Source: Actinomycetota bacterium
GTDB taxonomy: Bacteria; Actinomycetota; Actinomycetes; Actinomycetales; Microbacteriaceae
DNA length: 45,549 nucleotides
NCBI GenBank assembly: GCA_018268455.1
Contig: JAFDWM010000011.1
Span: 1-45,549 of the forward strand
Direction: 5' to 3'
Notes under the pieces: generated by a model
Told to the model about the DNA's origin: nothing
The model's input: only the letters and a program-made list of their open reading frames with translations
Databases searched by the model: none
Program-made: the position numbers and the translations under genes
Part shown: positions 15,938-45,205 of the stretch, piece after piece
How the letters are laid out: every line of letters begins with the position of its first letter
Numbering within the stretch: the stretch's first letter is position 1

Positions 15938-16022
15938 GCGACGCCTGCACGATCGCGCGACGCCTGCACGACCGGATCCGCGAATCCGTCGTACGGACGT
16001 CGCGGCGTCGTGCAGGTGTCGC
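15938..16022. repeat. Hairpin element, unit GCGACGCCTGCACGA (element 1)
   Basis: Two direct copies of a 15-bp unit (15938-15952 and 15957-15971) are followed by two inverted copies (15989-16003 degenerate, 16008-16022 with one change). The two 34-nt arms are equal in length and pair at about 27 positions around a 17-nt loop. It lies between purQ and the DHFR-like gene. No T-run follows, so a classical terminator is unlikely. Confidence 0.75.
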
Positions 16023-16106
16023 GGCGCGCGTCGGCTCTTCGGATCCATTGCCCCGCCCTCGCACTCGGGTCTAGCGTCGAATCGGCATCGGCGAGCGGAG
16101 GATCCC

Positions 16107-16694
16107 ATGGGCCGGTTCGTGTACTGGATGAACGTGTCCCTCGATCTGCGCATCGAGGCCGCCCCCGACGAGAACGGCGGGGGCGACTGGATGCGGATCG
16201 GCGAGCCGCTGCACCGCGAATTCAATCGCCGCGCGGCGGACTTGGCCCTCATGGTGCAGGGGCGCCGGGTGTTCGAGATCATGGAGTCGTTCTGGCCGGC
16301 GGCGCGCGATGACCGCACGCTGCCCGCGTACCTGCAGGAGTACGGCGCGATCTGGACGGACAAACCGAAGATCCTCGTCTCACGCACCCGCGCCGAGGCG
16401 CCGTTCCACACCACGGTCATCGGCGAGGACGCGATCTCCCGGCTCGCCGAGCTCCGCGCCGAGACCGACGGTGCCATCGGCGTCGGCGGTGCGACACTGG
16501 CTACCGCGCTGCTCGACGCCGGCCTGCTCGACGAGCTGCTGCTGTTCACGCACCCGGCGGTCCTCGGATCCGGCCGGCCGCTATTCGATGAGCCCGGGCC
16601 CGGCCGGGCCAGGCCTCCGGTGATCCTCGACCTGCTCGAGCAGGCGACGTTCGACGAGGGCGTCACGATGCACCACTACGCCGTGCGGCGCTGA
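16107..16694 (+). CDS. Dihydrofolate reductase family protein (RibD C-terminal fold)
   Basis: A 195-residue protein of the DHFR/RibD_C superfamily. It begins GRFVYWMNVSLDLRIEAA, has ALMVQGRRVFEIME, the NADPH-site GAIGVGGATLATALLDAGL, and ends with a strand containing FDEGVTMHHYAVRR. The order of elements fits the YyaP/RibD_C type, not housekeeping FolA. The true substrate of such proteins is generally unknown; NADPH-dependent reduction is expected. The ATG at 16107 follows GGAGG. A -10 TAGCGT lies at 16072-16077, so it has its own promoter behind hairpin element 1. Confidence 0.85.
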   Translation: MGRFVYWMNVSLDLRIEAAPDENGGGDWMRIGEPLHREFNRRAADLALMVQGRRVFEIMESFWPAARDDRTLPAYLQEYGAIWTDKPKILVSRTRAEAPFHTTVIGEDAISRLAELRAETDGAIGVGGATLATALLDAGLLDELLLFTHPAVLGSGRPLFDEPGPGRARPPVILDLLEQATFDEGVTMHHYAVRR

Positions 16695-16731
16695 GCCACG
16701 GGTCTCGCCGACGGTCAGCCGAGGGCGGCGG

Positions 16732-17160
16732 TCAGCTGAGGGCGGGCGGCCAGACTCCGATGAGCACGGCCATCACCACGACCGTCACGAGTTCGTGCGC
16801 GATGTTCAGCACGGTCAGCGAGCTGGGACGTCCCTCGAAGGCGTCGTGCGTGATGAACCGCGCCGCCGTGAATCCCATCCACAGCGTGATCGCGGTGACC
16901 AGTGCCGAGACGAAGAACGAGCCGCCGTAGAAGTGCCAGGCGATGGCCGTGGCCCCGGCGAGCACCCATGCCGTGATGAAGCTCACGATCACGGTCGCGA
17001 TGATGGACAGCACCGGGTTGCCCTTGGGGTTGTCGAGGTCGACGCCGGCCAGCCGCGCCCAGCGGGTGCCGAGCACGCCCCGGGCGTACCAGAGGGATCC
17101 GACGATCATGCTCGACGCGGTCGCCAGCAGCACCGCCCAGTAGTTGATCTCGGGAATCAT
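16732..17160 (-). CDS. DUF1761 family membrane protein
   Basis: A 142-residue integral membrane protein with four hydrophobic segments. The N-terminal segment, INYWAVLLATASSMIVGSLW and then YARGVLGTRW, is the DUF1761 signature. TLWMGFTAARFITHDAFEGR is the conserved third region. The function of this family is unknown. The gene is read toward the DHFR-like gene (convergent) and is separated from the upstream SDR gene by a 240-nt gap containing hairpin element 2. Confidence 0.85.
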   Translation of the reverse strand: MIPEINYWAVLLATASSMIVGSLWYARGVLGTRWARLAGVDLDNPKGNPVLSIIATVIVSFITAWVLAGATAIAWHFYGGSFFVSALVTAITLWMGFTAARFITHDAFEGRPSSLTVLNIAHELVTVVVMAVLIGVWPPALS

Positions 17161-17258
17161 GATGCTCCTCTGCGATCGGGCCGCGAGCGTGGTGCCCGTG
17201 TGAGAGAAAGCGTAGAGGCTCGGATCCGCGTCGACGCGGTGCTCGGCCGTGTCGAGTC

Positions 17259-17379
17259 GTTCTGCAGGGAGTCACGACCGTTCCGCAGGGAGGAAAGGCT
17301 CATCGAGGCCGGATCCGACCCGCTGCGGGCCTCTCAGCGCCGCACGCTCCTGCACAACGGTGTGGTCACCCTGCAGAAC
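17259..17379. repeat. Hairpin element, unit GTTCTGCAGGGAG (element 2)
   Basis: Direct copies lie at 17259-17271 and 17280-17292, and inverted copies at 17347-17358 and 17368-17379. The 33-34-nt arms match at about 27 positions with one gap, around a 54-nt loop. It occupies most of the gap between the DUF1761 gene and the SDR stop at 17401. Nothing else is recognisable in 17161-17400. Confidence 0.7.
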
Positions 17380-17400
17380 AGCACGGTATCCAGACAGGGG

Positions 17401-18957
17401 TCACCACGGACTGGGTTCGTAGTCCTTCAGGAACACGCCGTGGATGTCCTCGCCGGACTCACCCCGCACGATCGGGTCGTACACGCGAGCGGCGCCGTCG
17501 ACGAGGTCGAGCGGGGCGTGGAACCCCTCCTCGGCCAGGCGCACCTTCGTGTAGTGCGGGCGCTCGTCGGTGATCCAGCCGGTGTCGACCGCGGTCATCA
17601 GGATCCCGTCGGTCTCCAGCATCTCCCCCGCGCTCGTGCGGGTGAGCATGTTCAGCGCGGCCTTCGCCATGTTCGTGTGCGGGTGGCCCGGACCCTTGTA
17701 GCGGCGGGAGAACTGGCCCTCCATCGCCGAGACGTTCACGATGTGCTTGCGCCGTGCGGGCGACGCCGCCATCGACGGGCGCAGCCGGCTGATGAGCAGG
17801 AACGGCGCCGTCGTGTTGCACAGCTGCACCTCGAGCATCTCGAGCGGATCCACCTGGTCGACGCTCTGCACCCAGCTGTTCACCCGGTTCACATCGGGAA
17901 CGAGCCCGCCCGCATCGATCGCGGTGCCATCGGCGTGCTTCGCGAGCGAGGAGGATCCGGGCGCCATCGCGAGCCGGGCGAGCTCTTCGGCGGTGAGCGC
18001 CCGACCGCCCTGCTCGGCGATCGTGCCGTTCAGCGAGGCGATCGACAACAGCGGATGCGCGTCGACGGATGCCTGCAGCGCCTCCGGGTGCGGATCCGCG
18101 GTGTGCCCGAACGTCTCCATCTCGGGTAGCGGGCCGTTCGGTAGCGGCTGCAGCTCGGCGTCGACGAGGAGCGAGTACGCGCCGGGCGAGCGGCGCACGG
18201 TCTGCGCGGCGTTGTTGATGAGGATGTCGAGCGGACCTTGCGCTGCGACCGAGTCGGCGAGCGCGATCACCTGCGCGGGGTCGCGCAGATCGATGCCGAC
18301 CACGCGCAGCCGGTGCAGCCAGTCGGCCGAGTCCTCGAGCGCCGCGAACCGGCGCACCGCGTCGCGCGGGAACCGCGTGGTGATCGTGGTGTGCGCGCCG
18401 TCGCGCAGCAGCCGCAGCGCGATGTGCATGCCGATCTTGGCGCGGCCGCCGGTGAGCAGCGCGCGCTTGCCGGTGAGGTCGGTGCGCGCGTTGCGCTTGC
18501 CGTGGCTGAACCGGGCGCAGTCGGGGCAGAGCTGGTGATAGAACGCATCGACCGTCGTGTACGGCTTCTTGCAGATGTAGCAGTTGCGGGGCTTCAGCAG
18601 CTCGCCGGCGGTCGGTGCGTCCATGACGCTGCTCGCGAGATCCAGCCCGCGGGTCTCGTCGTCGATGCGGTCGGGGGCGCCCGTCGCGGTGGCGGCGATC
18701 ACGGCCTTGTCCGCCTCGGCGATCGCATCGCGGATCTCCCGCCGGCGCACGCGCTTCGCGGCCTTGAACATCGCGGACGTGCCCCGGCGCACCGCGATGA
18801 AGTCGGGGTGCTCCTGGTCGAGTTCGTGCAGGGCGGCCAGCACGCGCAGGGTCGTCGCGAGGTCGTCGGGGTCGATGCCCTGTCCTGCGGTGTCGCCGCC
18901 CGCCGTCGCGCTGCGCTCGCTCGGCGTCGACGGGGCGTCGGAAGAGGCGTCGGTCAT
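17401..18957 (-). CDS. Short-chain dehydrogenase fold protein with N-terminal zinc-knuckle domain
   Basis: A 518-residue protein. Residues 1-120 are an uncharacterised helical region. Cys126, Cys129, Cys144 and Cys147 (NCYICKKPY, LCPDCARF) make a probable zinc site. A Rossmann SDR domain follows with TGGRAKIGMHIALRLL (about 169-184), DILINNAAQTVRRSPGAY and VNVSAMEGQF. The catalytic tyrosine of the YxxxK motif is not visible: the segment reads HTNMAKAALNML, with Thr four residues before Lys. The active-site Ser is present. The protein is therefore either a divergent oxidoreductase or a non-catalytic nucleotide-binding protein. ATG 18957 is preferred over GTG 18963 because TAAAAT ends 7 nt before it. 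Confidence 0.85.
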   Translation of the reverse strand: MTDASSDAPSTPSERSATAGGDTAGQGIDPDDLATTLRVLAALHELDQEHPDFIAVRRGTSAMFKAAKRVRRREIRDAIAEADKAVIAATATGAPDRIDDETRGLDLASSVMDAPTAGELLKPRNCYICKKPYTTVDAFYHQLCPDCARFSHGKRNARTDLTGKRALLTGGRAKIGMHIALRLLRDGAHTTITTRFPRDAVRRFAALEDSADWLHRLRVVGIDLRDPAQVIALADSVAAQGPLDILINNAAQTVRRSPGAYSLLVDAELQPLPNGPLPEMETFGHTADPHPEALQASVDAHPLLSIASLNGTIAEQGGRALTAEELARLAMAPGSSSLAKHADGTAIDAGGLVPDVNRVNSWVQSVDQVDPLEMLEVQLCNTTAPFLLISRLRPSMAASPARRKHIVNVSAMEGQFSRRYKGPGHPHTNMAKAALNMLTRTSAGEMLETDGILMTAVDTGWITDERPHYTKVRLAEEGFHAPLDLVDGAARVYDPIVRGESGEDIHGVFLKDYEPSPW

Positions 18958-18964
18958 TGTCACG

Positions 18965-18970
18965 ATTTTA
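18965..18970 (-). promoter_or_regulatory. -10 box of the SDR gene, leaderless
   Basis: TAAAAT on the minus strand ends 7 nt before ATG 18957 and directly abuts the alternative GTG 18963. This supports the ATG as start. Confidence 0.5.
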
Positions 18971-19050
18971 CGCGAGCCGGCTGGGTGGGCGCCCGGACGG
19001 CCGTGCGGCCGGGCGTCGGTGCGTCCCCGTCCGGGCGTCCGCGCCTCTGG

Positions 19051-19131
19051 GGGCTCGCCGGTGCACCGGTTACTGCCGAGCGCACCGCTTGTTCACGCGA
19101 AGATCAGGTGCACTCGACAGGACCCGGTGCA
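19051..19131. repeat. Hairpin element, unit around TGCACCGG (element 3a)
   Basis: Arms 19062-19094 and 19099-19131 (33 nt each) pair at about 25 positions around an ACGC loop. Each arm holds two GCACC-type units. From 19051 it is about 95% identical over 78 bp to element 3b, 193 bp downstream. A further degenerate unit follows to about 19150. It lies in the 511-nt region between the divergent SDR and dehydrogenase genes. The rest of that region holds GC-rich GAGGACGCC tandem repeats (about 19180-19220) and no credible gene. Confidence 0.7.
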
Positions 19132-19243
19132 GCCGACAAGATTCTGTGCAGCCCGGCGGATCCGCATCACGCCGCACGCCCCCGAGGACGCCGCTGCGGA
19201 CGCCGCCGAGGACGCCCCGCCGCGGTGAGCGCCCAGATACCCC

Positions 19244-19324
19244 GGGCTCGCCGGTGCACCGGTTGCTGCCGAGCGCACCGCTTATTCACGCGAAGATCCG
19301 GTGCACTCGACAGGATCCGGTAGT
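19244..19324. repeat. Hairpin element, second copy (element 3b)
   Basis: This is the near-identical copy of 19051-19131. Arms are 19255-19287 and 19292-19324 around the same ACGC loop. Sequence diverges after GGATCCGG, where copy 3a has GGACCCGG. The pair forms a 193-bp-spaced direct repeat. Confidence 0.7.
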
Positions 19325-19456
19325 CGGGCGGATCCGCTTCGCGTCGCACGTGAGAACGGCACCCCGGCACCCCACGCCCACGCCCCACACCCACCACCCG
19401 CCCCCGCCCGGTCCACCCCCTGCCGAGTGGACCGGGCGCCGTCGCGCCACCGGGCA

Positions 19457-19462
19457 TACGCT
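19457..19462 (+). promoter_or_regulatory. -10 box of the hydroxyacid dehydrogenase gene, leaderless
   Basis: TACGCT ends 6 nt before GTG 19469, with no Shine-Dalgarno sequence between. Confidence 0.55.
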
Positions 19463-19468
19463 CGGAGC

Positions 19469-20398
19469 GTGAGCCTTCTCGTCACCGTCCCCACCGCCGA
19501 ACTCGCCGCCGACATCATCGCCGCCGGGCCGCTGCCCGACGGCGTGCACGTGCAGGTGTGGGACATGGCGACCCCGCCCCCTGCCGAGCGCATCGACATC
19601 GTCGTGCCGTCGTACCTCGGTCGGCAGCGCTTCTCCTCCCTGGACGGCATTGATGTGGGCCTCGTGCAAGGGCAGATGATCGGCTACGAGGCGGTGATCG
19701 GCAGCATTCCCGCGGGCGTCCCGTTCGCAAACGCCGCGAGCGTGCACGAGACCGCCACCGCCGAGCTCGCCGTGGGGCTCGTGATCGCGGCGCAGCGCCA
19801 GCTGCCGCGCTTCGTACGTGCGCAGGACGCGGGGGTCTGGGACCGCGGCTTCACCTCGAGCCTCGCCGACCGCCGCGTGCTGCTCGTCGGCCTCGGCGGC
19901 GTCGGCCGGGGCATCGCGCGGCGCCTCGGCGGGTTCGAGGCGTCGATCACGGCGGTCGCGCAGAGCGCGCGCACCGAGCACCTGGACGGCGTCGGCGATA
20001 TCGCGGTGCACCCGCTGTCGGCGCTGCCCGCGCTGCTCCCCGAGGCGGAGATCGTGATCCTCTCCCTGCCCGGCGGACCCGGCACGCAGCAGCTCTTCGA
20101 CGCCGCGATGCTCGCCCGCATGCCCGACGACGCCCTGCTGGTGAACGTCGGGCGCGGCACGGTCATCGACACCGACGCGCTGGTGGCGGAGGGCGGGCGG
20201 ATCCGCGCCGCCCTGGACGTCATGGATCCGGAGCCACTGCCCGAGGGGCACCCGCTCTGGACCACGCCCGGTGTGCTGTTCACGCCGCACGTCGGCGGAG
20301 CCTCGAGCGCCATGCGGCCGCGCGTCGCCGCACTCGTGCGCCGCCAGATCGCGCACCTGCTCGCCGGCGAGGAGCCGGAGAACCTCATCCCGCACTGA
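19469..20398 (+). CDS. D-isomer-specific 2-hydroxyacid dehydrogenase family protein
   Basis: A 309-residue NAD(P)-dependent dehydrogenase. The nucleotide site GLGGVGRGIARRL lies in the middle, followed by LVNVGRGTVIDTDAL, LDVMDPEPLPEGHPLW and TPHVGGAS. The catalytic Arg, Glu and His positions of the family are all present. HETATAELAVGLVIAAQRQ forms the hinge helix. Such enzymes reduce 2-keto acids such as glyoxylate, hydroxypyruvate or phenylpyruvate; substrate is not evident here. The start is set by the -10 box 6 nt upstream of GTG 19469, since the open frame itself runs through repeat DNA further upstream. Confidence 0.92.
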   Translation: MSLLVTVPTAELAADIIAAGPLPDGVHVQVWDMATPPPAERIDIVVPSYLGRQRFSSLDGIDVGLVQGQMIGYEAVIGSIPAGVPFANAASVHETATAELAVGLVIAAQRQLPRFVRAQDAGVWDRGFTSSLADRRVLLVGLGGVGRGIARRLGGFEASITAVAQSARTEHLDGVGDIAVHPLSALPALLPEAEIVILSLPGGPGTQQLFDAAMLARMPDDALLVNVGRGTVIDTDALVAEGGRIRAALDVMDPEPLPEGHPLWTTPGVLFTPHVGGASSAMRPRVAALVRRQIAHLLAGEEPENLIPH

Positions 20399-20458
20399 GC
20401 CGGACTCGGTGGTCGAACCGATTCGATCCGCGCGTTTCCGCGAATCACGGCGGCCGGG

Positions 20459-20464
20459 TACCCT
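20459..20464 (+). promoter_or_regulatory. -10 box of the GH13 gene, leaderless
   Basis: TACCCT ends 6 nt before ATG 20471. Confidence 0.55.
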
Positions 20465-20470
20465 GTTCGC

Positions 20471-22132: not shown

Positions 22133-22174
22133 CCCCGGGCCGGTGGTGGCGGTCCCGACCCGTACCCGCCACCC

Positions 22175-22262: not shown

Positions 22263-22343
22263 CTGACCGCGAGACTCCAACGGGGCCTCGAGACTGCGCG
22301 AGAATGACGCAGTCTCGAGACCCAGATGCAGTCTCGCGGTCAG
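22263..22343. repeat. Hairpin element, unit CGAGACTGC (element 4a)
   Basis: Two 36-nt arms (22263-22298 and 22308-22343) pair at 32 of 36 positions around a 9-nt loop. The outer 14 bp and inner 12 bp are perfect. The unit CGAGACT occurs twice direct and twice inverted. It lies between convergent stops (22132 and 22354) and could end transcripts from both sides, although no T-run follows. A sibling with the same unit is at 41260-41332. Confidence 0.8.
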
Positions 22344-23723: not shown

Positions 23724-23786
23724 CGCTCCCGTCGCAACGGATGCCGTTCCCACCGCGCGAGAACCGCATCTTTTGCGACGGGAGCG
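23724..23786. repeat. Hairpin element, unit CGCTCCCGTCGCAA (element 5a)
   Basis: Arms 23724-23748 and 23762-23786 (25 nt) match at 22 positions around a 13-nt loop; the outer 14 bp are perfect. Further degenerate units (CGTTCCC at 23745, CAACGGGAAT at about 23808) restore the direct-direct-inverted-inverted plan. A relative lies in kdpD at 35770-35832. Confidence 0.75.
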
Positions 23787-30156: not shown

Positions 30157-32462
30157 CCGTCATCGACACCCCGCTCACCCACCCGGCACCCGAGCCGGGC
30201 ACGAACTCCCCGCAGCGCACACCGCGCGCCTTCGGCTGGAGCCAGCTCGTGCAGGCCCTGCCCGGAGCGCTGCGCCGGCTGAATCCCGCCCGGCTGCTGC
30301 GCAACCCGGTGATCCTGCTGGTCTGGGCCGGCGCCGCGATGACGACCGTCCTCGCGATCGCGGAGCCGTTCCTCGGCGGTTCCCTCGGCGCCGGGGGCGG
30401 CGCTGCCGCGGACTCCGGCAGCGCGCCGGTGCCGGCCGGCTTCACCTGGTCGATCGCGGTCTGGCTGTGGCTGACCGTCCTGTTCGCGAACCTCGCGGAG
30501 TCGGTCGCCGAGGGCCGCGGCAAGGCGCAGGCGGCGACGCTGCGCAAGACCCGCACGAGCACCATGGCGCGACGCGTGCTCGGCTACGACGCGGCAGCGG
30601 ATCCGTCGGCCACCGGCGCCCGCACCGAGGAGGTCTCCTCGGCGGAGCTGCGCCGCGACGACGTGGTGATCGTCACGGCCGGGGAGCCGATCCCCGGCGA
30701 CGGCGACATCGTCGCCGGCATCGCCACCGTGGACGAGTCGGCGATCACCGGAGAGAGCGCGCCGGTCGTGCGCGAGTCGGGCGGCGACCGCAGCGCCGTC
30801 ACCGGCGGCACCCGCGTGCTGTCCGACCGGATCGTGGTGCGGATCACGTCGAAGCCCGGCGAGACCTTCGTCGACCGGATGATCGCTCTCGTCGAGGGCG
30901 CGAACCGGCAGCGCACGCCCAACGAGATCGCGCTGAACATCCTGCTCGCGAGCCTGTCGATCGTGTTCCTCGTGGTCGTGCTCGCGCTCAACCCGATCGC
31001 GTCGTACTCGGCGTCGCCGGTGGGCATCCCGGTGCTCATCGCCCTGCTCGTCTGCCTCATCCCGACCACGATCGGCGCGCTGCTGAGCGCGATCGGCATC
31101 GCGGGCATGGACCGGCTGGTGCAGCGCAATGTGCTGGCGATGTCGGGCCGGGCGGTCGAGGCGGCGGGAGACGTCACCACGCTGCTGCTCGACAAGACCG
31201 GCACGATCACCTACGGCAACCGGCGCGCCACCGAGGTGCTGCCCGTCGCGGGCGTGACCGTGAAGGAGCTGCTGCGCGCAGCAGCCCTGTCCTCGCTCGC
31301 CGACCCCACCCCGGAGGGCGCCTCGATCGTCGAGCTGGCCGCCGGCCACGGCATCGTCGTCACCTCGCCGGAGGGTGCGCAGCCGGTGCCGTTCACCGCG
31401 CAGACGCGCATGAGCGGCGTGGATCTGCCCGACGGCACGCAGATCCGCAAGGGGGCCGGATCCGCGATCCGCTCCTGGCTCGAAGCGGAGGGGGCGGGAT
31501 CCGAGGTGTCCGCGGAGGAGGCCCGGCGCTTCGCCGACGCGATCGCGGCGTCCGGCGGCACCCCGCTGGTGGTCGCGGTCGCCCGTCCCGGCACGCTCGC
31601 GCGGTCGATTCCTGAACGCGCGGCCGATACATCTGCAGCGCCGTCAGGAAAGGACAGCGCGAGCGTGCATGGCGGCGCCGATACCGACGCGGGCGCCGCT
31701 AGCGAGGGCGGTGCCGCTGGGGCCAGGATCCTCGGCGTCGTGCACCTCAAGGACGTCGTCAAGGAGGGGCTGTCCGAGCGGTTCGGCGAACTGCGCAGCA
31801 TGGGGATCCGCACCGTGATGATCACCGGCGACAACCCGCTCACCGCGAAGGCGATCGCCGCGGAGGCCGGCGTGGACGACTACCTCGCCGAGGCCACGCC
31901 GGAGGACAAGCTCGCGCTGATCCGCCGCGAGCAGGAGGGCGGGCGGCTCGTCGCGATGACCGGAGACGGCACGAACGACGCGCCCGCACTCGCGCAGGCC
32001 GACGTGGGCGTCGCGATGAACACCGGCACCTCGGCCGCGAAGGAGGCCGGGAACATGGTCGACCTCGACTCGGATCCGACCAAGCTCATCGACATCGTGC
32101 GCATCGGCAAGCAGCTGCTCATCACCCGCGGTGCGCTGACCACGTTCTCGCTCGCGAACGACATCGCCAAGTACTTCGCCATCATCCCGGCGATGTTCGC
32201 GGCCACCTTCCCCGGGCTGGGCGTGTTGAACATCATGCAGCTGCACTCGCCGGCGTCGGCCGTGACGAGCGCGATCATCTTCAACGCGATCGTGATCGTC
32301 TTCCTCATCCCGCTCGCGCTGCGCGGCGTGCGCTACCGCCCGGCCGGCGCCGCGCAGATCCTGCAGCGCAACCTGCTCATCTACGGCCTCGGCGGCATCA
32401 TCCTGCCGTTCCTCGGCATCAAGCTCATCGACCTCGTGGTCGCCCTCATCCCCGGCTTCTGA
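30153..32462 (+). CDS. kdpB: K+-transporting P-type ATPase subunit B
   Basis: A 769-residue P-type ATPase. Conserved parts are [16 protein letters not shown] (actuator loop), the phosphorylated Asp347 in [62 protein letters not shown] and [18 protein letters not shown]. It is about 75-85 residues longer than usual. The excess comes from an N-terminal extension and a low-complexity insert at about 480-525 (Ser/Ala/Asp/Gly-rich, encoded by about 31590-31725) in the nucleotide-binding domain. The ATG overlaps the kdpA stop (ATGA). The insert keeps the frame, so the protein is probably functional. Confidence 0.96.
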
Positions 32463-33138: not shown

Positions 33139-35873
33139 ACAAAGCGGTGCCCGGGGTCGATCGGGCGAGACGGAGGGGCGGAATGCACGCGGTGGGCGAG
33201 GCGACGGCAGAACGGCGCGAGGGCGGATCCGGCTCCCGCGGCCGCCTGCGCGTGCTGCTCGGTGCGGCGCCCGGCGTCGGCAAGACCTACGAGATGCTCG
33301 CCGAGGGCCGCCATCTGCAGGACACGGGTGGCGACGTCGTGATCGCGGTCGTGGAGACGCACGGCCGTGAAGCCACGCGGGCGCAGACCGCGGGTCTCGC
33401 CGAGGTGCCGCGGCGCACGGTGACCCACCGGGGCGTGCAGCTCGAGGAGATGGACCTCGATGCGGTGCTCGCCCGCCGCCCCGGCACCGCACTCGTCGAC
33501 GAGCTCGCACACACGAACGTCCCCGGATCCCGCAACGAGAAGCGCTGGCAGGACGTGCAGGAGCTGCTCGCGGCCGGCATCGACGTGGTCACCACCGTCA
33601 ACGTGCAGCACATCGAGTCGCTCAACGCGGTGGTCGAGAAGATCACCGGCGTCGCGCAGCAGGAGACCGTGCCGGACGCCGTGGTGCGCGGGGCGGACGA
33701 GGTGGAGGTGGTGGATCTCGCACCGCAGTCCCTGCGTGACCGTCTCTCGGCAGGGCAGGTGTACCCGGCCGAGCGGATCGATGCGGCGCTGTCGAACTAC
33801 TTCCGGCTCGGCAACCTCACGGCGCTGCGCGAACTCGCACTGCTCTGGCTCGCCGACGAGGTCGACTCCGCGCTGCGCAGCTACCGCACCGAGCACGGCA
33901 TCGACAGCGCCTGGCAGACCCGCGAGCGCGTCGTGGTCGCCCTCACCGGCGGCCCCGAGGGCGAGACGCTGCTGCGCCGCGGCGCCAGGATCGCGGCGCG
34001 TTCGGCGGGCGGGGAGCTGCTCGCGGTGCACGTCACCACGCAGGACGGCCTGCGCGCCGACCAGCCGGGGGCGCTCACCGCGCAGCGCGGCCTCGTGGAG
34101 TCGCTCGGCGGCAGCTACCACCAGCTCGTCGGCGATGACGTGGCCGGCACGCTCGTCGAGTTCGCGCAGTCCGTCGATGCCAGCCAGCTCGTGATCGGCG
34201 TGAGCCGGCGCTCACGGCTGTCGGCGGCGCTCACCGGGCCCGGCATCGGCGCCGAGGTGATCCGTCGCTCCGGCGACATCGACGTGCACATCGTCACGCA
34301 CGCCGCCGCAGGCCGGCGCGGGGCCCTGCCGCGCATCACCGGCGGAGCCCTCGGCTGGCGGCGCCAGCTCATCGGGCTCGCGGTCGCGCTGGTCGGCGGC
34401 CCGCTGTTGTCCTGGCTGCTGTACACGACGCGCACCCCCGGATCCATCACCTCCGACGTGCTGGCCTACCAGCTGCTGGTCGTCGTGGTGGCGCTCATCG
34501 GGGGTCTTCGCCCTGCGCTGTTCGCCGCCGTGCTGAGCGGACTCACGCTGGACTTCCTGTTCGTGGAGCCGCTGTTCACCGTGACGATCGCGGATCCGCT
34601 GCACGCGCTCGCGCTGGTGCTGTACGTCGTGAACGCGGTGCTCGTGAGCATCGTCGTCGACCAGGCGGCACGCCGTGCCCGCGCCGCCCGGCGGGCGTCC
34701 AGCGAGGCCGAGCTGCTCGCCGCCGTCGCCGGGAACGTGCTGCGCGGAGACAGCGCGCCCACCGCACTCGTGGCGCGGGCCCGGGAGGCGTTCGGGCTCA
34801 GCGGGATCCGCCTGCTCGCCCCCGACGGCGCCGTGATCGCGGCCGACGGCGAGCCGCTCGGCGTGATCGGATCCGATGAGGCCGCGACGGTGGAATCCGT
34901 GCCGGTCGGCGTGAACGCGGACGGGCGTCCGCGCGCCGTGCTCGAGCTGCACGGCGCCGAGCTGGATGCGGCAGGACGGCGCCTGCTCGACGCGATCGCC
35001 GCCCAGCTCGCGGCCGCGATCGAGCACACCGATCTGCGCGAGACCGCCAGCCAGGCGGCCGTGCTCGCCGAGACCGACCAGGTGCGCAGCGCCCTGCTCT
35101 CCGCCCTCAGCCACGACCTGCGCCGTCCGCTCGCCGCGGCCGTGGCCGCCGTCGGCGGCTTGCGGGGCGCGCACCGGCTCTCCGCCGCCGATCGCGCCGA
35201 ACTCGTGGAGACCGCCGACGAGAGCCTCGCCACGCTCACCCGGCTGGTGACGGACCTGCTCGATGTCAGCCGCGTGCAGGCCGGGGTGCTGGCGGTGTCG
35301 CTCGCGCCGGTCGACGCGGCGGGCGTGGTGACCTCGGCGCTGGACGAGCTCACCCTGGGCCCGGGCGAGGTCGAGCTGGCGCTGGATGCGGCACTGCCGC
35401 CGCTGCGTGCGGATCCGGTGCTGCTGCAGCGCGTGCTCGTGAACCTGCTCGCGAACGGCGTGCGGCATTCGCCGGACGGCAGCCGGGTGCTGGTGTCGAC
35501 GAGTGCCCTCGGCTCCCGCGCCGAGATCCGCGTCATCGACCGCGGCGCCGGGATCCCGGAGGATCAGCGTGAGAGCGCGTTCCTGCCTTTTCAGCGGCAC
35601 GGCGACACCGACAACACCACCGGACTCGGCCTGGGCCTGGCGCTCTCGCGCGGCTTCGCCGAGGGCATGGGCGGCACGCTCACCGCGGAGGACACCCCGG
35701 GCGGCGGCCTGACGATGGTCGTGTCGCTTCCGCTCGCCGGCACGGTTCTCGACCAGCCAGACCCACTTTCGCTCCCGTCGCAGAAGTTGTCGTTCGAACC
35801 CCTTTCCGGCGACAGTTATCGCGACGGGAACGCCCGCCGACCCGACCCGCTCGCGAAGGAGGATCCGCGATGA
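33135..35873 (+). CDS. kdpD: Potassium sensor histidine kinase KdpD
   Basis: A 912-residue sensor. In order it has: a KdpD N-terminal domain with Walker A GAAPGVGKTYEML and IDVVTTVNVQHIESLNAVVE; a universal-stress-like domain (about 250-370); four membrane helices of the DUF4118 type; a GAF-like region; and a HisKA box LLSALSHDLRRPLAAAVA. A HATPase follows with LVNLLANGVRHSPDGS, DRGAGIPEDQ and TTGLGLGLALSRGF. The start is set by overlap with the kdpC stop. The kinase fold ends near VVSLPLAG. The last 45 or so residues, including DPLSLPSQKLSFEPLSGDS, are encoded largely by a hairpin repeat (35770-35832) and are probably not part of the enzyme. Confidence 0.95.
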   Translation: MNKAVPGVDRARRRGGMHAVGEATAERREGGSGSRGRLRVLLGAAPGVGKTYEMLAEGRHLQDTGGDVVIAVVETHGREATRAQTAGLAEVPRRTVTHRGVQLEEMDLDAVLARRPGTALVDELAHTNVPGSRNEKRWQDVQELLAAGIDVVTTVNVQHIESLNAVVEKITGVAQQETVPDAVVRGADEVEVVDLAPQSLRDRLSAGQVYPAERIDAALSNYFRLGNLTALRELALLWLADEVDSALRSYRTEHGIDSAWQTRERVVVALTGGPEGETLLRRGARIAARSAGGELLAVHVTTQDGLRADQPGALTAQRGLVESLGGSYHQLVGDDVAGTLVEFAQSVDASQLVIGVSRRSRLSAALTGPGIGAEVIRRSGDIDVHIVTHAAAGRRGALPRITGGALGWRRQLIGLAVALVGGPLLSWLLYTTRTPGSITSDVLAYQLLVVVVALIGGLRPALFAAVLSGLTLDFLFVEPLFTVTIADPLHALALVLYVVNAVLVSIVVDQAARRARAARRASSEAELLAAVAGNVLRGDSAPTALVARAREAFGLSGIRLLAPDGAVIAADGEPLGVIGSDEAATVESVPVGVNADGRPRAVLELHGAELDAAGRRLLDAIAAQLAAAIEHTDLRETASQAAVLAETDQVRSALLSALSHDLRRPLAAAVAAVGGLRGAHRLSAADRAELVETADESLATLTRLVTDLLDVSRVQAGVLAVSLAPVDAAGVVTSALDELTLGPGEVELALDAALPPLRADPVLLQRVLVNLLANGVRHSPDGSRVLVSTSALGSRAEIRVIDRGAGIPEDQRESAFLPFQRHGDTDNTTGLGLGLALSRGFAEGMGGTLTAEDTPGGGLTMVVSLPLAGTVLDQPDPLSLPSQKLSFEPLSGDSYRDGNARRPDPLAKEDPR
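35770..35832. repeat. Hairpin element inside kdpD (element 5b)
   Basis: Arms 35770-35792 and 35810-35832 (23 nt) match at about 17 positions around a 17-nt loop. The outer unit CGCTCCCGTCGC pairs with GCGACGGGAACG (one mismatch). It shares the unit of intergenic element 5a. It is read as coding sequence for KdpD residues of about 879-900. Confidence 0.7.
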
Positions 35874-40585: not shown

Positions 40586-40725
40586 GCCTTCATCGTGCCA
40601 TCCGCCTCGGACATCCGGGGCGGTCGTCATCGAGGTTCTGCCGTGGGCAGTCGCCTCGGCGCCCGCCTCAGGCGGATCCGCCGTGGGCCCGGGAAGCGCA
40701 CCGGGTCCACGGCGGAGTGTGTCGG

Positions 40726-41136: not shown

Positions 41137-41259
41137 GATCCTTCTCCTTCTCCGGTACTCATACGCTCGTCGCTAAGGCCCCCTCGCCCCATCGGGCAGA
41201 TGCCTTAACTTCTGCGGTGGGTACCTCAGATCCGCGGATCCGCCCCGCAGACAGCTGGC

Positions 41260-41332
41260 CCGCGAGACTGCATCGGGGGCGCGAGACTGCATCGCAGGAG
41301 CGCAGTCTCGTGACGGAGATGGAGTCTCGCGG
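41260..41332. repeat. Hairpin element, unit GCGAGACTGCATC (element 4b)
   Basis: Direct units lie at 41262-41274 and 41281-41293 (identical 13-mers), and inverted units at about 41302-41310 and 41318-41331. The 31-nt arms (41260-41290 and 41302-41332) pair at about 25 positions around an 11-nt loop. The unit is shared with element 4a, 19 kb away. Here it lies between divergent genes. Confidence 0.78.
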
Positions 41333-41393
41333 TCACCATGCGCCACACCGGGCACGCGCGAGACCCGGCGCACGGCGGGCGGGCAGGCCGGAC

Positions 41394-41399
41394 TACCGT
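41394..41399 (+). promoter_or_regulatory. -10 box of the FUSC gene, leaderless
   Basis: TACCGT ends 6 nt before ATG 41406. Confidence 0.5.
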
Positions 41400-41405
41400 G
41401 GAACC

Positions 41406-42443
41406 ATGCGCCCCCTTGCCGCCCTCCGCGCCGCCCGACGCGGCCCGATCCTGCAGGTCGCGAAGTCGGCGGCGGCAACGATCGCGGCGTGGATCATCGC
41501 CGGCTGGGTGGTGCCGGGGCACCTGCCCGTGTTCGCGGCGATCGCGGCGCTGCTCGTGGTGCAGCCCAGCGTGAACCAGTCGTTCGCGAAGGCCGTGGAG
41601 CGCAGCATCGGGGTGATCGCCGGCGTCGTGATCGCGGTGCTGCTGAGCCTCGCGCTCGGACAGCTGAGCTGGGTCGTGCTGCTGGCTGTCGTCGTGGCGA
41701 TGGTCGCGGCGTGGGCGTTCAAGGCGACACCAGGCACCTCCAACCAGGTCGCGATCTCGGCGATGCTCGTGCTGGCGCTCGGATCCGCGAGCCCCGACTA
41801 CGCCATGGACCGGATCCTGGAGACCCTGATCGGCGCCGCGATCGGCTTCGTCGTGAACGTGATGGTCGTGCCGCCTGTGCTGCTCGCCCCGGCCCGGCGT
41901 GATCTGGCCCTGCTCGGCGGGGAGCTCGCCGCGTCACTCGACCGGCTCGGCACGGCGATCGTCGCGCCGCAGTCGTCGGCGCGGCGCAACGAGCTGATGG
42001 TCGAGGCACGACTGCTGCGGCCGATGAAGGCGGCGTCCGACGCCTCGCTGCGCGCGGGCGACGAGTCGCTCACCCTGAACCCGCGCGGCGGCCGGCATCG
42101 CGACGAACTCGCCGCGATGCACGCGCTGCAGGAACGGCTCGGGCCGGTGGTGACGCAGGTGATCGGCATGACCCGCGCCTACGTCGACCACTACGACGAC
42201 ACTCTGCCCTCAGAGCCGGCGGTCTCCGCGATCGCCGAGCAGCTGCATCGTGCGGGCCACGACGTGCGGCTGGCCGTGCAGCTCGCCGAGGTCGACCCGG
42301 AACCCGAGGCGATGACGTCCGTCATCCCGGCGCTCACGTCGCCGCTGGAGATCCGCCCGCCGTCGTCGCGCAGCTGGGTGCTGATCGGATCCCTCACCGA
42401 GGACCTCCGCCGCATCCGCGCCGGCCTGCGCGGCGACGGCTGA
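41406..42443 (+). CDS. FUSC family / aromatic acid exporter-like membrane protein
   Basis: A 345-residue protein. The N-terminal half (about 15-160) holds six hydrophobic segments, including AAATIAAWIIAGWVVPGHLP, ALLVVQPSVNQSFAKAVERS and ETLIGAAIGFVVNVMVVPPV. These match the FUSC/ArAE fold. The C-terminal half is soluble and helical. Relatives of this family export aromatic acids or are uncharacterised; the substrate is unknown. The start is supported by a -10 box 6 nt upstream. It is convergent with the GH35 gene. Confidence 0.85.
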   Translation: MRPLAALRAARRGPILQVAKSAAATIAAWIIAGWVVPGHLPVFAAIAALLVVQPSVNQSFAKAVERSIGVIAGVVIAVLLSLALGQLSWVVLLAVVVAMVAAWAFKATPGTSNQVAISAMLVLALGSASPDYAMDRILETLIGAAIGFVVNVMVVPPVLLAPARRDLALLGGELAASLDRLGTAIVAPQSSARRNELMVEARLLRPMKAASDASLRAGDESLTLNPRGGRHRDELAAMHALQERLGPVVTQVIGMTRAYVDHYDDTLPSEPAVSAIAEQLHRAGHDVRLAVQLAEVDPEPEAMTSVIPALTSPLEIRPPSSRSWVLIGSLTEDLRRIRAGLRGDG

Positions 42444-42510
42444 GGGGCGGATCCGGTCCCGGTCGTCGAGCGAGGACGGCCGTGCCGCAGACGGCCGAGA
42501 CGGCCCCGCG

Positions 42511-44277
42511 TCACGACCCGATGAACTCCTCGACGGGGCCGAAGTCGGGCTGCTCGCGGATCTCGACCGCGGATCCGATCGCGTCGGTGTCGAGGATCCG
42601 GATCTCGTTGCGGCCGGTGCGCCACAGCGGGGCCGGCGCATACAGGGTCACCTGCGGTCCCACCGCGCGCAGCCGGCCGAGCAGGAAGCCGTTCAGCCAC
42701 ACCATCGCGTTCGCCGCGCCCGGGACGGCGAGCCAGGCGTCGGCCGGGTCCGCAACCTCCAGGAGCGCCTCGGACAGTCCGTCGGCCGGCGCCGCCGGCA
42801 CCGCGTCCGCGCTGACGGGGAGCATGGGTGCGTCCTGCGGCAGGATCCGGTGCGTCCAGCCGTGCGCGAAGCGACGCCCGATCCGCACTCCGGCGAGGAT
42901 GCCCTTCGCCTCGCCGGTGCGCGGACCGTAGTTCACCCGGCCCTGGCTCTCCACGACGAGCGTGAGCACGCCGGATCCGCCCCCATCGTCCGGCAGCGCC
43001 AGCGACCGCTGCCCGTCGCGCTCGAGCACCCCGAGCCGCACCCCGTCGAGGTACGCCACGGCCCGGTCGTGCAGCTCGTCGATCGTGAGCGTCTCGCCCG
43101 GCGCGAACGTGACCGGCGCCTCGTAGACGACGAGGCCGTCCTCGGCACCGAGCTCCTCGAACGTCAGCGGCATCGGCGCCGCAGCTCCCGCGGGCGCGGT
43201 GTGCACGACGTCGAACAGCGAGGCGATCGCACGAAGCGGCGCCGACGCGGCCGGCTGACGCCGCGGCGGATCCGGGATCGGCGGCAGCTCGCCGTCGTGG
43301 AACGGGGCGAACGCCGCGCGCAGCGCGTGGAACTTGTCGTTCAGGGATCCGTCCTCGCCGATCGGGGCGTCCGAGTCGTACGAGGTGACGGTCGGCTGCA
43401 GCGCACCGTCGTGGTTCGCGCCGGCCCACAGGCCGAAGTTCGTGCCGCCGTGCGCCATGTACAGGCTCACGGATCCGCCCGCGTCGAGCAGCTCCTGCAC
43501 CGTTCCGGCCATGCTCGCCGCCGAACGCACGTGGTGCTGCTCGCCCCAGTGGTCGAACCAGCCGCCCCACAGCTCGGCGCACAGCAGCGGCTGCTCGGGC
43601 GTGCGCAGGGACTCGGCGAGCGCGACGCCGGTGCCGAACGTGAACGAGCCCATGGCCCCGTCGACGCTGCCGTTGCGCACCATGTCGGCGGTGGTGCCGT
43701 CGGCGGTGGTGAGCAGCTCGGTGATGCCCCGTGCGCGCAGGCCGTCGTGCAGGTGCTCGAGGTAGCCGCGGTCGCTGCCGAAGGATCCGTACTCGTTCTC
43801 CACCTGGATCGCCGTGATCGGTCCGCCGTGCACGGTCTGCAATGCCGCGAGCCGGGGGATGAGGTCGTCGTACCAGGCGTCGACGGCGGCAAGGAAGACC
43901 GGATCGCTCGTGCGCAGGGCGCGGGTGCGGCCGCTCAGCCAGAACGGGATGCCGCCGTTCGACCACTCCGCGCAGATGTACGGGCTCGGACGAACGAAGA
44001 CGTCCAGGCCGATCTCGCCCGCGAGCCGGATGAACCGCTCGGCGTCGCGCCACCCGGTGAAGTCGCGGTGACCCTCCGTGCGCTCGTGGAAGTTCCACGG
44101 GATGTAGGTGTCGACGGTGTTCGCCCCCATCGCGGCGAGCCGGCGCAGCCGGTCCTCCCACTGGTCGGGGTGGATCCGGAAGTAGTGCACGGCACCCGAC
44201 AGCATCCGGAACGGCTTCCCGTGGCGCAGCAGCACCCCATCGGCGTAGGTGAGCGCGGGCGCGGCGGTCTCGGTCAT
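42511..44277 (-). CDS. GH35 beta-galactosidase
   Basis: A 588-residue glycoside hydrolase of family 35. The N-terminus has GKPFRMLSGAVHYFRIHPDQ and ANTVDTYIPWNFHE. The acid/base lies in ITAIQVENEYGSFG (Glu160/Glu162 segment), and the nucleophile is Glu235 in LLCAELWGGWFDHWG. Jelly-roll domains follow, with PSA-type galactose-binding parts near the end. No signal peptide is seen, so it is probably cytosolic and acts on imported beta-galactosides. ATG 44277 follows GGGAGAG; the longer frame upstream has no homology. A degenerate LacI-like site precedes it. Confidence 0.93.
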   Translation of the reverse strand: MTETAAPALTYADGVLLRHGKPFRMLSGAVHYFRIHPDQWEDRLRRLAAMGANTVDTYIPWNFHERTEGHRDFTGWRDAERFIRLAGEIGLDVFVRPSPYICAEWSNGGIPFWLSGRTRALRTSDPVFLAAVDAWYDDLIPRLAALQTVHGGPITAIQVENEYGSFGSDRGYLEHLHDGLRARGITELLTTADGTTADMVRNGSVDGAMGSFTFGTGVALAESLRTPEQPLLCAELWGGWFDHWGEQHHVRSAASMAGTVQELLDAGGSVSLYMAHGGTNFGLWAGANHDGALQPTVTSYDSDAPIGEDGSLNDKFHALRAAFAPFHDGELPPIPDPPRRQPAASAPLRAIASLFDVVHTAPAGAAAPMPLTFEELGAEDGLVVYEAPVTFAPGETLTIDELHDRAVAYLDGVRLGVLERDGQRSLALPDDGGGSGVLTLVVESQGRVNYGPRTGEAKGILAGVRIGRRFAHGWTHRILPQDAPMLPVSADAVPAAPADGLSEALLEVADPADAWLAVPGAANAMVWLNGFLLGRLRAVGPQVTLYAPAPLWRTGRNEIRILDTDAIGSAVEIREQPDFGPVEEFIGS

Positions 44278-44304
44278 GTCTCTCCCGGTCGACGAGGCGT
44301 GTGA

Positions 44305-44318
44305 TGTTAGCGTCACCA
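44305..44318. promoter_or_regulatory. Possible LacI-type operator before the GH35 gene
   Basis: TGTTAGCGTCACCA has one good half-site of the TGTTAGCGCTAACA class and one degenerate half. It lies 28 nt before the GH35 start. On the minus strand the half-site includes TAACAT (44304-44309), a possible -10. Confidence 0.35.
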
Positions 44319-44359
44319 TTGTCTCGCATCGGGCCGCCCCGACACAGTTCGGTGCGGCA

Positions 44360-44365
44360 TAGGCT
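44360..44365 (+). promoter_or_regulatory. -10 box of the AlkD-like gene, leaderless
   Basis: TAGGCT ends 6 nt before ATG 44372. Confidence 0.5.
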
Positions 44366-44371
44366 GTCGGC

Positions 44372-45034
44372 ATGTCCACGACCCTGGCTCAGGCCCTCGC
44401 CGATCTTGCCGCCCTGGAGGATCCGAAGGCCCGCGCGATCAACGAGCGGCACGGCGATGCGCACGGTGTGAACCTCACCAGGATGCGCGGCCTCGCGAAG
44501 TCGATCGGCGCGGATCCGGATCTCGCCCGCGAGCTGTACGACGACGGCGACGTCGCAGGCCAGCTGCTCGGGATCCTGCTCGCGAAGCCCCGCACGCTCA
44601 GCGCCGACGACCTCGACACCATGGTGCGGACGACCCAGAGCTCGAAGGCGCACGACTGGGTGGTCGCGTACCTCGTGAAGAAGTCGCCGCACGCGGAGGA
44701 GCTGCGGGAGCGCTGGTTCGAGGATCCGGATCCGGACGCCCGCGCCGCCGCCTGGTCGCTCACCTCGGTGCGGGTCGCGAAGAGCCCCGACGGCCTGGAC
44801 CTCGATGCGCTGCTCGACCGGATCGAGCGCGAACTCGCCGGCGCCCCGAGCCGCGAGCAGTGGGCGATGAACGAGACCCTCGCCTACATCGGGATCCACC
44901 ATCCTGCGCTGCGCGAGCGTGCCGTGGCCATCGGTGAACGGCTGCAGGTGCTCGCCGACTACCCGGTGCCGCCGAACTGCACCTCGCCCTTCGCGCCGCT
45001 CTGGATCGCCGAGATGGTCCGCCGCCAGGGGTAG
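44372..45034 (+). CDS. DNA alkylation repair-like HEAT-repeat protein (AlkD-like)
   Basis: A 220-residue all-helical protein. The segment VVRTTQSSKAHDWVVAYLVK-type helix pairs, AAWSLTSVRVAKSP and NETLAYIGIHHPALRERAVA fit the HEAT-like repeats of the DNA alkylation repair (PF08713-like) family. AlkD members remove positively charged alkylated bases by a non-base-flipping mechanism. The catalytic Asp and Trp cannot be assigned with certainty here, and many relatives are uncharacterised. Own leaderless promoter, divergent from the GH35 gene. Confidence 0.75.
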   Translation: MSTTLAQALADLAALEDPKARAINERHGDAHGVNLTRMRGLAKSIGADPDLARELYDDGDVAGQLLGILLAKPRTLSADDLDTMVRTTQSSKAHDWVVAYLVKKSPHAEELRERWFEDPDPDARAAAWSLTSVRVAKSPDGLDLDALLDRIERELAGAPSREQWAMNETLAYIGIHHPALRERAVAIGERLQVLADYPVPPNCTSPFAPLWIAEMVRRQG

Positions 45035-45077
45035 CCCCGGATCCGAGAACCGGCCCCGCCCGGGCCCCGGCCCGGCC

Positions 45078-45121
45078 CGGCCCTGGGCCTACCGCGGCCC
45101 GGCCCTGGGCCTACCGCGGCC
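45078..45121. repeat. 22-bp tandem duplication, C/G-rich
   Basis: CGGCCCTGGGCCTACCGCGG begins at 45078 and again at 45100 (22-bp period). It follows the AlkD-like stop and precedes hairpin element 6, as the CCGG-rich block precedes element 4a. Confidence 0.65.
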
Positions 45122-45130
45122 GCACACCCG

Positions 45131-45205
45131 CTCGGGAGGAGAACTCACGCTCGGGAGGAGCGTTGGCGCGAAACCCTCCTCCCGAACCGGAGTTCTCCTC
45201 CCGAA
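45131..45205. repeat. Hairpin element, unit CTCGGGAGGAG (element 6)
   Basis: Direct units at 45131-45141 and 45150-45160 are followed by inverted units at 45176-45185 and 45195-45205. The 30-nt arms (45131-45160 and 45176-45205) pair at 26 positions around a 15-nt loop. It lies between the convergent AlkD-like and aldehyde dehydrogenase genes. No T-run follows. Confidence 0.8.

Follow-up and report, generated by a model that had tools for sequence, protein, structure and literature searches.

The window analyzed here is a 45,549-nt stretch of DNA and corresponds to contig C22 in G000, a 3.6-Mb genome probably from the genus Microbacterium. It contains eleven palindromes of one general kind, well above the number in shuffled sequence. 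Nine of these had been listed in the original prediction, and all nine were recovered, either at the positions given there or displaced by a few bases, with long hairpins as their computed folds (−29.7 to −65.8 kcal/mol, native sequences only); two further palindromes of element size, at 947–1015 and 31591–31668, were absent from that list. Family A is represented by an element in a convergent gap (22263..22343; CGCGAGACTGCA / CGAGACTGC, 19-bp period, outer unit ends 71 bp apart) and by a copy at 41260..41332 from the inverted-repeat scan, also with a 19-bp period. Two copies of family C were located at 19062..19131 (GTGCACCGG units) and 19255..19324 (inverted-repeat scan, 19-bp period). Family D includes a 59-bp element with CTCCCGTCGCA ends (23724..23786), in which a 19-bp direct repeat is absent, and a copy identified by pattern at 35770..35832 on the plus strand, which was missed by a BLAST-type search with the 23720 family D copy. 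The latter is in frame with kdpD, in the 3′ end of that gene, and the description of the blocks as non-coding fails at this site. Single elements represent family B (45131..45205; TCGGGAGGAG units, 73 bp, 19-bp period), family E (15938..16022; GCGACGCCTGCACGA units) and family G (947..1015; units CGAGAAACCA / TGAGACACCA, 19-bp period, family likeness judged by eye). Also present are an element with 21-bp period units GTTCTGCAGGGAG (17259..17379), which has one partial match elsewhere in G000, and a palindrome with GCACGCTCGCGC ends (31591..31668), to which two others in the sampled stretches (L070:6772 and L075:4254) appeared similar by eye.

Scanning the window for inverted repeats without gaps gave 12 repeats with scores of at least 13, versus 0–4 in each of ten first-order Markov shuffles, and 8 repeats with scores of at least 15, versus one across the ten shuffles together. 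Nine of the 12 were blocks of element size and three were ~40 bases long; blocks 17259 and 35770 fell below the cut-off of 13. When 20 further G000 stretches (337 kb, picked near earlier matches) were scanned, 56 repeats scored at least 15 (short ones counted) versus 1 in shuffled sequence. The expected excess of long inverted repeats over shuffled sequence was thus observed both in the window and in these additional regions. The window had no Rfam match at the gathering threshold, which ruled out a known RNA family for its hairpins.

The predicted build, two direct units followed by two inverted ones, was evaluated by the best 9-base match inside one arm. It was evident at a 19-bp period in both arms of seven of the eleven elements (947, 15938, 19062, 19255, 22263, 41260 and 45131; 7–9 of 9 bases matching), at the same period in one arm alone of element 31591, and at a 21-bp period in element 17259, and a clear direct repeat was absent from elements 23724 and 35770 by this test. 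Exactly 19 bp was also the period in 106 of 196 arms in G000, with 0–2 arms at each of the other periods. Of 113 family A copies, 110 had a length of 71 bp (64–80 bp permitted by the pattern); the length was 73 bp in all 23 copies of family B (71–75 permitted) and 59 bp in 29 of 30 copies of family D (58–66 permitted). The geometry is rigid, with four units, an 18–19-bp period in many families and near-constant length, and these data support the proposed class with common geometry and differing unit sequences. In their rigid spacing and unit conservation the elements look like sites for a multimeric DNA-binding protein, and to the extent of this resemblance the corresponding suggestion of the original prediction is supported.

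It had also been proposed that arms stay complementary while sites diverge; the data did not bear this out as a general pattern of compensation. Across 22 G000 copies of family A, spacer pairing was 0.614 versus 0.612 with arms shuffled between copies, and pairing of the outer unit was 0.934 versus 0.907, a value reached in 5 of 500 shuffles. We therefore rejected compensatory pairing as evidence for RNA structure, there being none in the spacer and a slight signal in the outer unit. The strong pairing excess among 91 family A copies in other species (z 10.7) mixes species subfamilies and was left unused; part of it may be compensation. Arm pairing is mostly a reflection of the repeated unit sequence.

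The families occupied 36 (A), 29 (B), 19 (C), 18 (D) and 11 (E) places in G000. The suggestion that the blocks are REP-like non-autonomous elements is supported. Two features were invisible to a reader of the window alone: members of the families are scattered across both the genome and the genus, and several families adjoin their own wHTH-nuclease gene. Extragenic position was checked only roughly with crude gene calls, whose over-extended starts make them too rough for a firm claim on gap type; by these calls, 41 of 75 long repeats could be placed, 18 of them in convergent gaps and others in divergent gaps, and 21 of 33 elements were within 100 bp of a stop codon. A check of orthologous sites for compensatory change had been suggested, and the orthologous gaps turned out to hold different families instead. 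For example, relatives carry other families in the gap orthologous to that of the 22263 element, and a short plain hairpin was seen there by eye in L203. In the slot comparison, from which LacI-like palindromes were excluded, the same slot was often hairpin-bearing with a different family (120/193 versus 108/1574). Aligned flanks of families A, B and D gave no clear excess of target-site duplications (a few false matches were included in the family A set); a small 2–3-base excess in the family C set of 60 came from a loose pattern with false matches, including coding sequence. No precise empty site was seen in the work on families A, B and D and the orthologous gap. The aligned ends of these three families had bases other than the GTAG or CGTC tag that REP palindromes carry at one end.

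We found that the protein encoded beside families A, B, C, D and G combines an N-terminal AbiEi-like wHTH with a C-terminal DUF559/Vsr-like nuclease domain. G000 has nine such genes. Elements flank the nuclease gene on both sides for family A (C66:19511-20269), family B (C233:227-1048), family C (C252:8635-9585) and family D (C11:19318-20295), and a family G element lies ~170 bp from C11:44893-45666 (element L316:1258-1330, beside the match at L316:1501-2274). Families E, F and H and elements 17259 and 31591 were beside none of the nine G000 nucleases; elements similar to family E flank nucleases of relatives (L225 and L222), and a nuclease partner was sought for elements 17259 and 31591 and none was found. 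Eight of the nine G000 genes had a hairpin with a score of at least 13 within 300 bp; at the remaining gene (C11:30.1k) the hairpins were weaker (score 11–12) and ~220 bp away. Ninety neighborhoods from the genus, fetched by protein profile alone, were the top of 473 summed profile matches with a few skipped, one of them (L219) being from G000. A hairpin was present within 300 bp in 69 of the 90 and on both sides in 30, versus 89 and 13, respectively, of 267 ordinary genes and 9 of 87 other genes in the nuclease loci; no hairpin lay within 300 bp of the remaining 21 nuclease genes. Counted by genomic location, the association held in 22 of 24. A short stand-alone gene (C225) caught by the DUF559 model, presumably resembling a true Vsr, had no hairpin of the element kind beside it and was discarded.

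Nuclease genes were detected in all 59 sampled genomes of the window's genus; in the sample taken from the whole order, 113 of 119 genomes had them. There are 1–16 genes per genome, and they diverge fast. Once duplicate loci and proteins interrupted by stop codons had been set aside, 50 proteins remained, of which 43 entered the alignment. At E≤0.01, PF04480 (DUF559) matched 34 and PF18741 (MTES_1575) matched 30 of the 43 members; an AbiEi_4-like wHTH was detected in 23, and one PADLOC AbiEi model matched 30. The acidic residues E181, D208 and D219, each kept in 41 of 43 members, are predicted to be catalytic, and H224 was kept in 33. The three A/G-type members scanned had no Pfam match of their own; a profile search, together with hhalign at a probability of 99, connects them to the family. 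The C211 gene matches profile positions 3–148 only. A weak match (E 0.033) related the profile to the mobile intron protein in PDB 3r3p, which we take to be I-Bth0305I. The genes keep their genomic locations, and 45 of 69 similar nuclease pairs were syntenic, i.e., mostly vertically inherited.

For 29 of 32 genes with elements on two sides, the match between the paired elements exceeded the 95th percentile for pairs taken across loci. Nuclease similarity also correlated with element similarity (Mantel r 0.34, 0/2000 permutations), a result that is inflated because the genes are mostly vertically inherited; among the non-syntenic similar nuclease pairs, only 3 of 24 have an element family in common. 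Nucleases that resemble each other have hairpins that do so too, in part because of shared ancestry. The nearest relatives of the G000 B and C nucleases carry similar elements, as do two of the three nearest for E2. Family D had no match among the sampled nuclease-flanking elements of relatives, and for N a resemblance to relatives' elements was judged by eye and confined to the outer unit, scores over the whole element being no higher than those of shuffles. Among 63 dispersed hairpins in relatives (LacI-like palindromes again excluded), 7 matched a sampled nuclease-flanking element, 2 of these best in the same genome, in a test that is weak with 90 of 473 nucleases sampled.

These observations suggest that the hairpins are probably dispersed palindromic repeat families served by a cognate wHTH + DUF559/Vsr-like nuclease, in an arrangement like that of REP and RAYT with an unrelated enzyme class. 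The association was observed directly, and from sequence we infer binding, cleavage and copying. The wHTH would read the element units, which would seat a nuclease multimer, and the enzyme would act on the element, most likely in a folded or single-stranded form, which is favored because 18–36 chromosomal copies are tolerated. Repair or replication at the cut would copy the element into new places, and diverging specificity of nuclease lineages would yield the same design with different unit sequences. Because families A, B and D lacked target-site duplications and no precise empty site was seen, transposition itself is a step that we infer. More tentatively, this may be a hitherto undescribed class of mobile DNA that is widespread in one actinobacterial order, in which a wHTH + Vsr-type nuclease copies palindromic multi-unit elements without a transposase, with a per-lineage code and with families replacing each other at gene-end slots.

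Alternatively, a domesticated protein of nuclease fold, regulatory or architectural in function, could bind the elements, for instance at the ends of genes; the elements would be anciently spread, no longer mobile and kept for termination, insulation or chromosome structure. Rigid spacing and unit conservation suit such a multimeric site, as do the proximity to stop codons and the recurrence of hairpins of different family in the same slots; we nevertheless consider this reading unlikely, since the putative catalytic residues are kept, copies occur in divergent gaps and inside kdpD, and the hairpins are found to either side of the nuclease gene, more often downstream (55 of 90) than upstream (44 of 90), unlike an operator. 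A reading as ordinary bidirectional terminators of transcription in a high-G+C genome would agree with the convergent gaps or positions soon after stop codons, with the plain hairpin in L203 and with the third of ordinary genes that have a hairpin within 300 bp. This explanation appears quite improbable, as it does not account for multi-copy families, near-fixed length, the 19-bp period, nuclease linkage, or copies in divergent gaps and a coding frame. A role in defense or self-recognition, with the nuclease restricting DNA and chromosomal elements titrating it or marking self, is suggested by the PADLOC match of the wHTH half to AbiEi and by the number and fast divergence of the genes. There is little chance that this is the explanation, given that the genes keep their locations and that an AbiEii-type partner toxin was absent among the four neighboring proteins scanned at three loci; one query protein had 0 phage and 2 plasmid matches, which we counted as neutral. 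True REP/RAYT elements mobilized by a Y1 HUH transposase, which would share the dispersed palindromes, arrays, repeat-flanked gene and co-evolution described for RAYTs (PMC2817692), are extremely improbable here, as the gene beside the repeats encodes a nuclease from a different family and the RAYT-type transposase of the original prediction was ruled out by a PF01797 (Y1_Tnp) search with no match at E≤1 in G000 and matches in 10 of 14 control genomes (6 above cut-off).

The preferred reading, repeat families served by cognate nucleases, provides a candidate role for a large nuclease-like protein group named only DUF559 or AbiEi-domain in databases. If true, it would be a second, independent arrangement of REP/RAYT type with a nuclease in place of the HUH transposase, would explain how one palindrome design occurs with unrelated sequences in related bacteria, and would make the nuclease-site pairs a natural library on changes in wHTH DNA specificity. 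In the open PMC papers searched, we found neither a link of DUF559, REase_MTES_1575 or AbiEi proteins to palindromic repeats nor a description of this class, as the original prediction had supposed.

Several known systems share some of these features. Like MITEs, the elements are short, mostly non-coding, dispersed inverted repeats, but families A, B and D lack target-site duplications, the gene they flank does not encode a DDE transposase, and element length is nearly fixed through the center. The element-linked nuclease and EDxHD homing endonucleases such as I-Bth0305I presumably have a Vsr-type catalytic domain in common, together with a separate DNA-reading part. In contrast to those enzymes, the gene was not seen inside an intron or intein, is chromosomal and mostly vertical, and is associated with many dispersed palindromic elements. 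I-Bth0305I is reported (PMC3943268) to dimerize on a target of nearly 60 bp. AbiEi antitoxins of type IV toxin-antitoxin systems and DUF559/REase_MTES_1575 proteins have the same AbiEi_4-like wHTH, DUF559 and MTES_1575 domains, and PMC3710099 describes MTES_1575 as a REase domain of the Vsr type in fusion with wHTH domains; the absence of AbiEii among the four neighbors scanned may be a difference from the toxin-antitoxin systems. A further parallel is with REP elements and REPINs and their RAYT (TnpA_REP) enzymes (PMC2817692, PMC3116915, PMC3733652; a text search of the last found no actinobacterial names). G000 lacks a Y1 HUH enzyme, having the wHTH + DUF559/Vsr-like nuclease instead, and its elements are ~59–85 bp, many of them having a pair of direct units 19 bp apart in each arm, in contrast to the 20–40 bp of REPs. 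By analogy, G000 has a repeat-flanked enzyme gene, many dispersed, mainly extragenic copies and enzyme-repeat co-evolution, although the last is seen mostly in syntenic pairs. These features resemble the short dispersed palindromes in species-specific families and arrays, and the chromosomal gene for a fast-evolving enzyme flanked by, and co-evolving with, its own repeat family, that are described for REP/RAYT (PMC2817692).

All nine long hairpin blocks of the original prediction are present in the window and show strong predicted folding. The expected excess over shuffled sequence was also observed: 12 palindromes scored ≥13, each of the ten shuffles giving 0–4, and 8 scored ≥15 vs one across all ten shuffles combined, in an ungapped scan whose score cut left out the blocks at 17259 and 35770. 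Two extra palindromes of equal size, at 947–1015 and 31591–31668, were absent from the earlier list. In 20 further stretches of the same genome, G000 (337 kb, selected near hits), 56 palindromes scored ≥15, short ones included, vs 1 in shuffled sequence. The proposed build of two direct followed by two inverted unit copies was recovered for most sites, with a 19-bp unit period in both arms at 947, 15938, 19062, 19255, 22263, 41260 and 45131 (two family-C sites being extended by 3 bases for this check), in one arm at 31591, and a period of 21 bp at 17259, but no clear direct repeat was seen at 23724 and 35770, both of family D (letters denote sequence families). Nor are all blocks non-coding, as had been stated, since the family-D copy at 35770–35832 lies in frame within the last ~44 codons of kdpD, past the ATPase domain; this frame extends on, overlapping the start of a response-regulator gene.

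Among 196 arms of long palindromes in G000, taken from stretches selected near hits and including many same-family copies, 106 matched themselves at exactly 19 bp (≥8 of 9 bases), and other periods from 11 to 28 accounted for 0–2 each. The 19-bp period was found in 29 of 100 arms from 20-kb stretches of relatives and in 36 of 206 arms of nuclease-adjacent palindromes, a further 28 of which showed 18 bp; shuffled arms gave 0–1. Length was 71 bp in 110 of 113 family-A copies (64–80 allowed), 73 bp in 23 of 23 family-B copies (71–75 allowed, one overlapping pair included) and 59 bp in 29 of 30 family-D copies (58–66 allowed). In family A, CGAGAC of both units is nearly invariant and the spacer is freely variable. 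The idea that arms remain complementary while sites diverge fared poorly for this family in G000: compensatory pairing in the spacer equaled that of shuffled arms, and the outer unit alone paired slightly better (reached by 5 of 500 shuffles). This pattern, with a nearly fixed length, a nearly invariant CGAGAC and a spacer that pairs as shuffled arms do, would be predicted better by a rigid multi-site protein complex than by selection for RNA pairing.

Sequence searches of G000 placed family A at ≥36 sites, B at 29, C at 19, D at 18 and E at ≥11 (counted by hand from tables at E≤0.001, with strands and overlaps merged); searches with the A, E and 17259 elements scored 40 candidates, so that A and E totals may be higher, and among these candidates the 17259 element had one partial match. 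The 35770 copy was given to family D by pattern and was not returned by the family-D sequence search. Additional families of the same size were present in sampled stretches. The family-A pattern matched at least 103 stretches of the genome collection, including 81 from Microbacterium, 16 from an Actinomycetota MAG, 3 from Microbacteriaceae PS02070, 2 from Humibacter and 1 from Aurantimonas, a distribution suggesting that the window also comes from Microbacterium; unit spacing was 19 bp among the matches listed, the pattern permitting 16–20. Five family-D copies form a tandem array on contig C251 (L046:1156–1507; step ~73 bp, inner sequences apparently alternating), and arrays of B (126–176 bp steps) and C occur on C213, C235, C38, C256, C248, C268 and C239. 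Several contigs (C38, C213, C225, C233 and C275) start or end in or near elements; the assembly may thus have been interrupted by the repeats, and actual copy numbers may exceed the counts. Another hairpin family, with arms GTTGAGCGAGC / CGCTCGCTCAAC, was seen in relatives (L198:1228–1279, L212:9373–9456).

On G000 contigs C252, C11 and C233, gaps of ~1 kb are bracketed by one family, and the gene inside always codes for a protein of ~270–330 aa. Of these proteins, those of C233 and C11 had a Pfam match to DUF559, and the C233 one also matched MTES_1575 and, weakly, AbiEi_4; the C252 protein had no relevant Pfam match. Among 43 members, 34 had DUF559, 30 MTES_1575 and 23 AbiEi_4, and E181, D208 and D219 were each conserved in 41; the members are read as winged-helix (wHTH) proteins with a putative nuclease domain. 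Among solved structures, the best sequence relatives were the endonuclease-like protein 3hrl (E 1e-8) and the mobile intron protein 3r3p (E 0.03). A profile from five G000 proteins had matches in all 59 genomes sampled from the genus (1–16 genes each), and a wider one found nine nuclease genes in G000. The A- and G-type proteins scanned had no Pfam match of their own; hhalign (probability 99) and profile-search E-values of 1e-12 to 1e-22 linked the former to the family, and the wider profile linked the latter.

Eight of these nine genes meet the hairpin cut used for relatives (score ≥13, ≤300 bp from the gene). Hairpins of families B, A, C and D accompany the genes on C233, C66, C252 and C11 (19.3k), respectively. 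The C275 gene has identical 85-bp E2 elements at both ends, one of which begins the contig, so that assembly may contribute to their identity. Family N occurs downstream only on C215, and family G on one side at C11:44.9k, soon before the contig end. For the gene at C211:95945–96385 (L082:10945–11385), the match is confined to the first profile half; this gene has a single nearby hairpin and may represent a decaying system; that at C11:30.1k has hairpins of score 11–12 only. A short C225 gene, which we take to resemble true Vsr, had no such hairpin beside it. Nuclease genes of two relatives (L228, L326) carry an in-frame stop within the match; some systems may therefore be recently lost.

When 90 neighbourhoods were selected by protein match alone (top of a 473-match list), 69 had a hairpin within 300 bp of the nuclease gene and 30 had one on both sides; the distance was typically 100–150 bp for upstream hairpins and 5–120 bp for downstream ones. 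Random intervals gave 12.6% and 0.4%, respectively. Intervals bounded by genes in relatives served as a stricter control, with limits set slightly looser, and gave 89/267 and 13/267; other genes of the same loci had a hairpin in 9/87 cases. Fisher tests gave P of 6e-13 and 5e-11, but the loci share descent: the 90 genes represent 24 genomic locations, 22 of which have a hairpin in one or more species and 20 in at least half of the species. Of 29 nuclease loci fetched from across the order, 22 had a hairpin (16 of 22 outside the window's family; control counts come from other genomes), some being short and terminator-like (L334, L341).

In 29 of 32 cases, the two elements lying upstream and downstream of a gene (≤400 bp) matched each other better than 95% of cross-locus pairs did. 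Nuclease and element similarity were correlated over 70 loci (Mantel r 0.34, 0/2000 permutations). Among 69 similar-nuclease pairs, 23 of 45 syntenic and 3 of 24 non-syntenic pairs shared elements (background 0.3%), and much of the correlation thus reflects vertical descent. Like elements by score were found for C233 in its nearest sampled relative L250 (the second nearest, L223, had no hairpin), for C252 in its nearest relatives L256 and L266 (by eye in L278), and for C275 in L254 and L220, not clearly in the nearest, L221. The relatives nearest to C215 (L236, L257, L265, L244) share the outer unit of family N by eye, with whole-element scores no better than shuffles; those nearest to C66 (L127, L182, L088) all have A elements, having been found via the A pattern. 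Elements adjacent to nucleases L225 and L222 match window family E, and those adjacent to L272 match family F; the D, 17259 and 31591 elements had no match among sampled nuclease-flanking elements. Within a synteny group spanning 11 genomes, a number of elements resemble drifted forms of one unit (CACAACGCAGGA, CACAACGACGCAGATT, CCGATTGCAGGA), and those of L301 and L302 appear unrelated to it. At syntenic loci, the nuclease gene averaged 67% identity vs 83% for flanks, the latter biased upward by the use of BLAST segments, and was lower in 141 of 142 pairs.

The intergenic gap following the amylase gene (window 22132) holds family A in G000 and D-like, GAGAAACCA, other hairpins or a short plain hairpin in relatives. 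Some hairpin occurred in 120 of 193 non-alignable orthologous segments of hairpins vs 108 of 1574 control segments, many of these non-independent pairs coming from few slots, the amylase gap foremost. Hairpin-free orthologous gaps were mostly shorter than an element, and no exact empty site was resolved among the gaps compared. Several relatives (L197–L205, e.g. L200:17112–17163) carry paired GGGAGCGCTCCC palindromes at a conserved location; these look like ordinary LacI-type operators and were excluded from this count.

In the proposed reading, the wHTH-nuclease would bind, cleave and copy the elements, and the tolerance of dozens of chromosomal sites suggests that it acts on folded or single-stranded DNA. 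No published link of these proteins to palindromic repeats was found in a literature search of mainly open PMC papers. The RAYT-type transposase considered earlier had no counterpart in G000, where no Y1 match was detected. The organization of hairpins and flanking gene matches that described for REP/RAYT in PMC2817692; however, the REP/RAYT enzyme is a Y1 protein and the flanking gene here codes for a wHTH-nuclease. By analogy, the hairpin-nuclease system would thus work like REP/RAYT without being a member of it.
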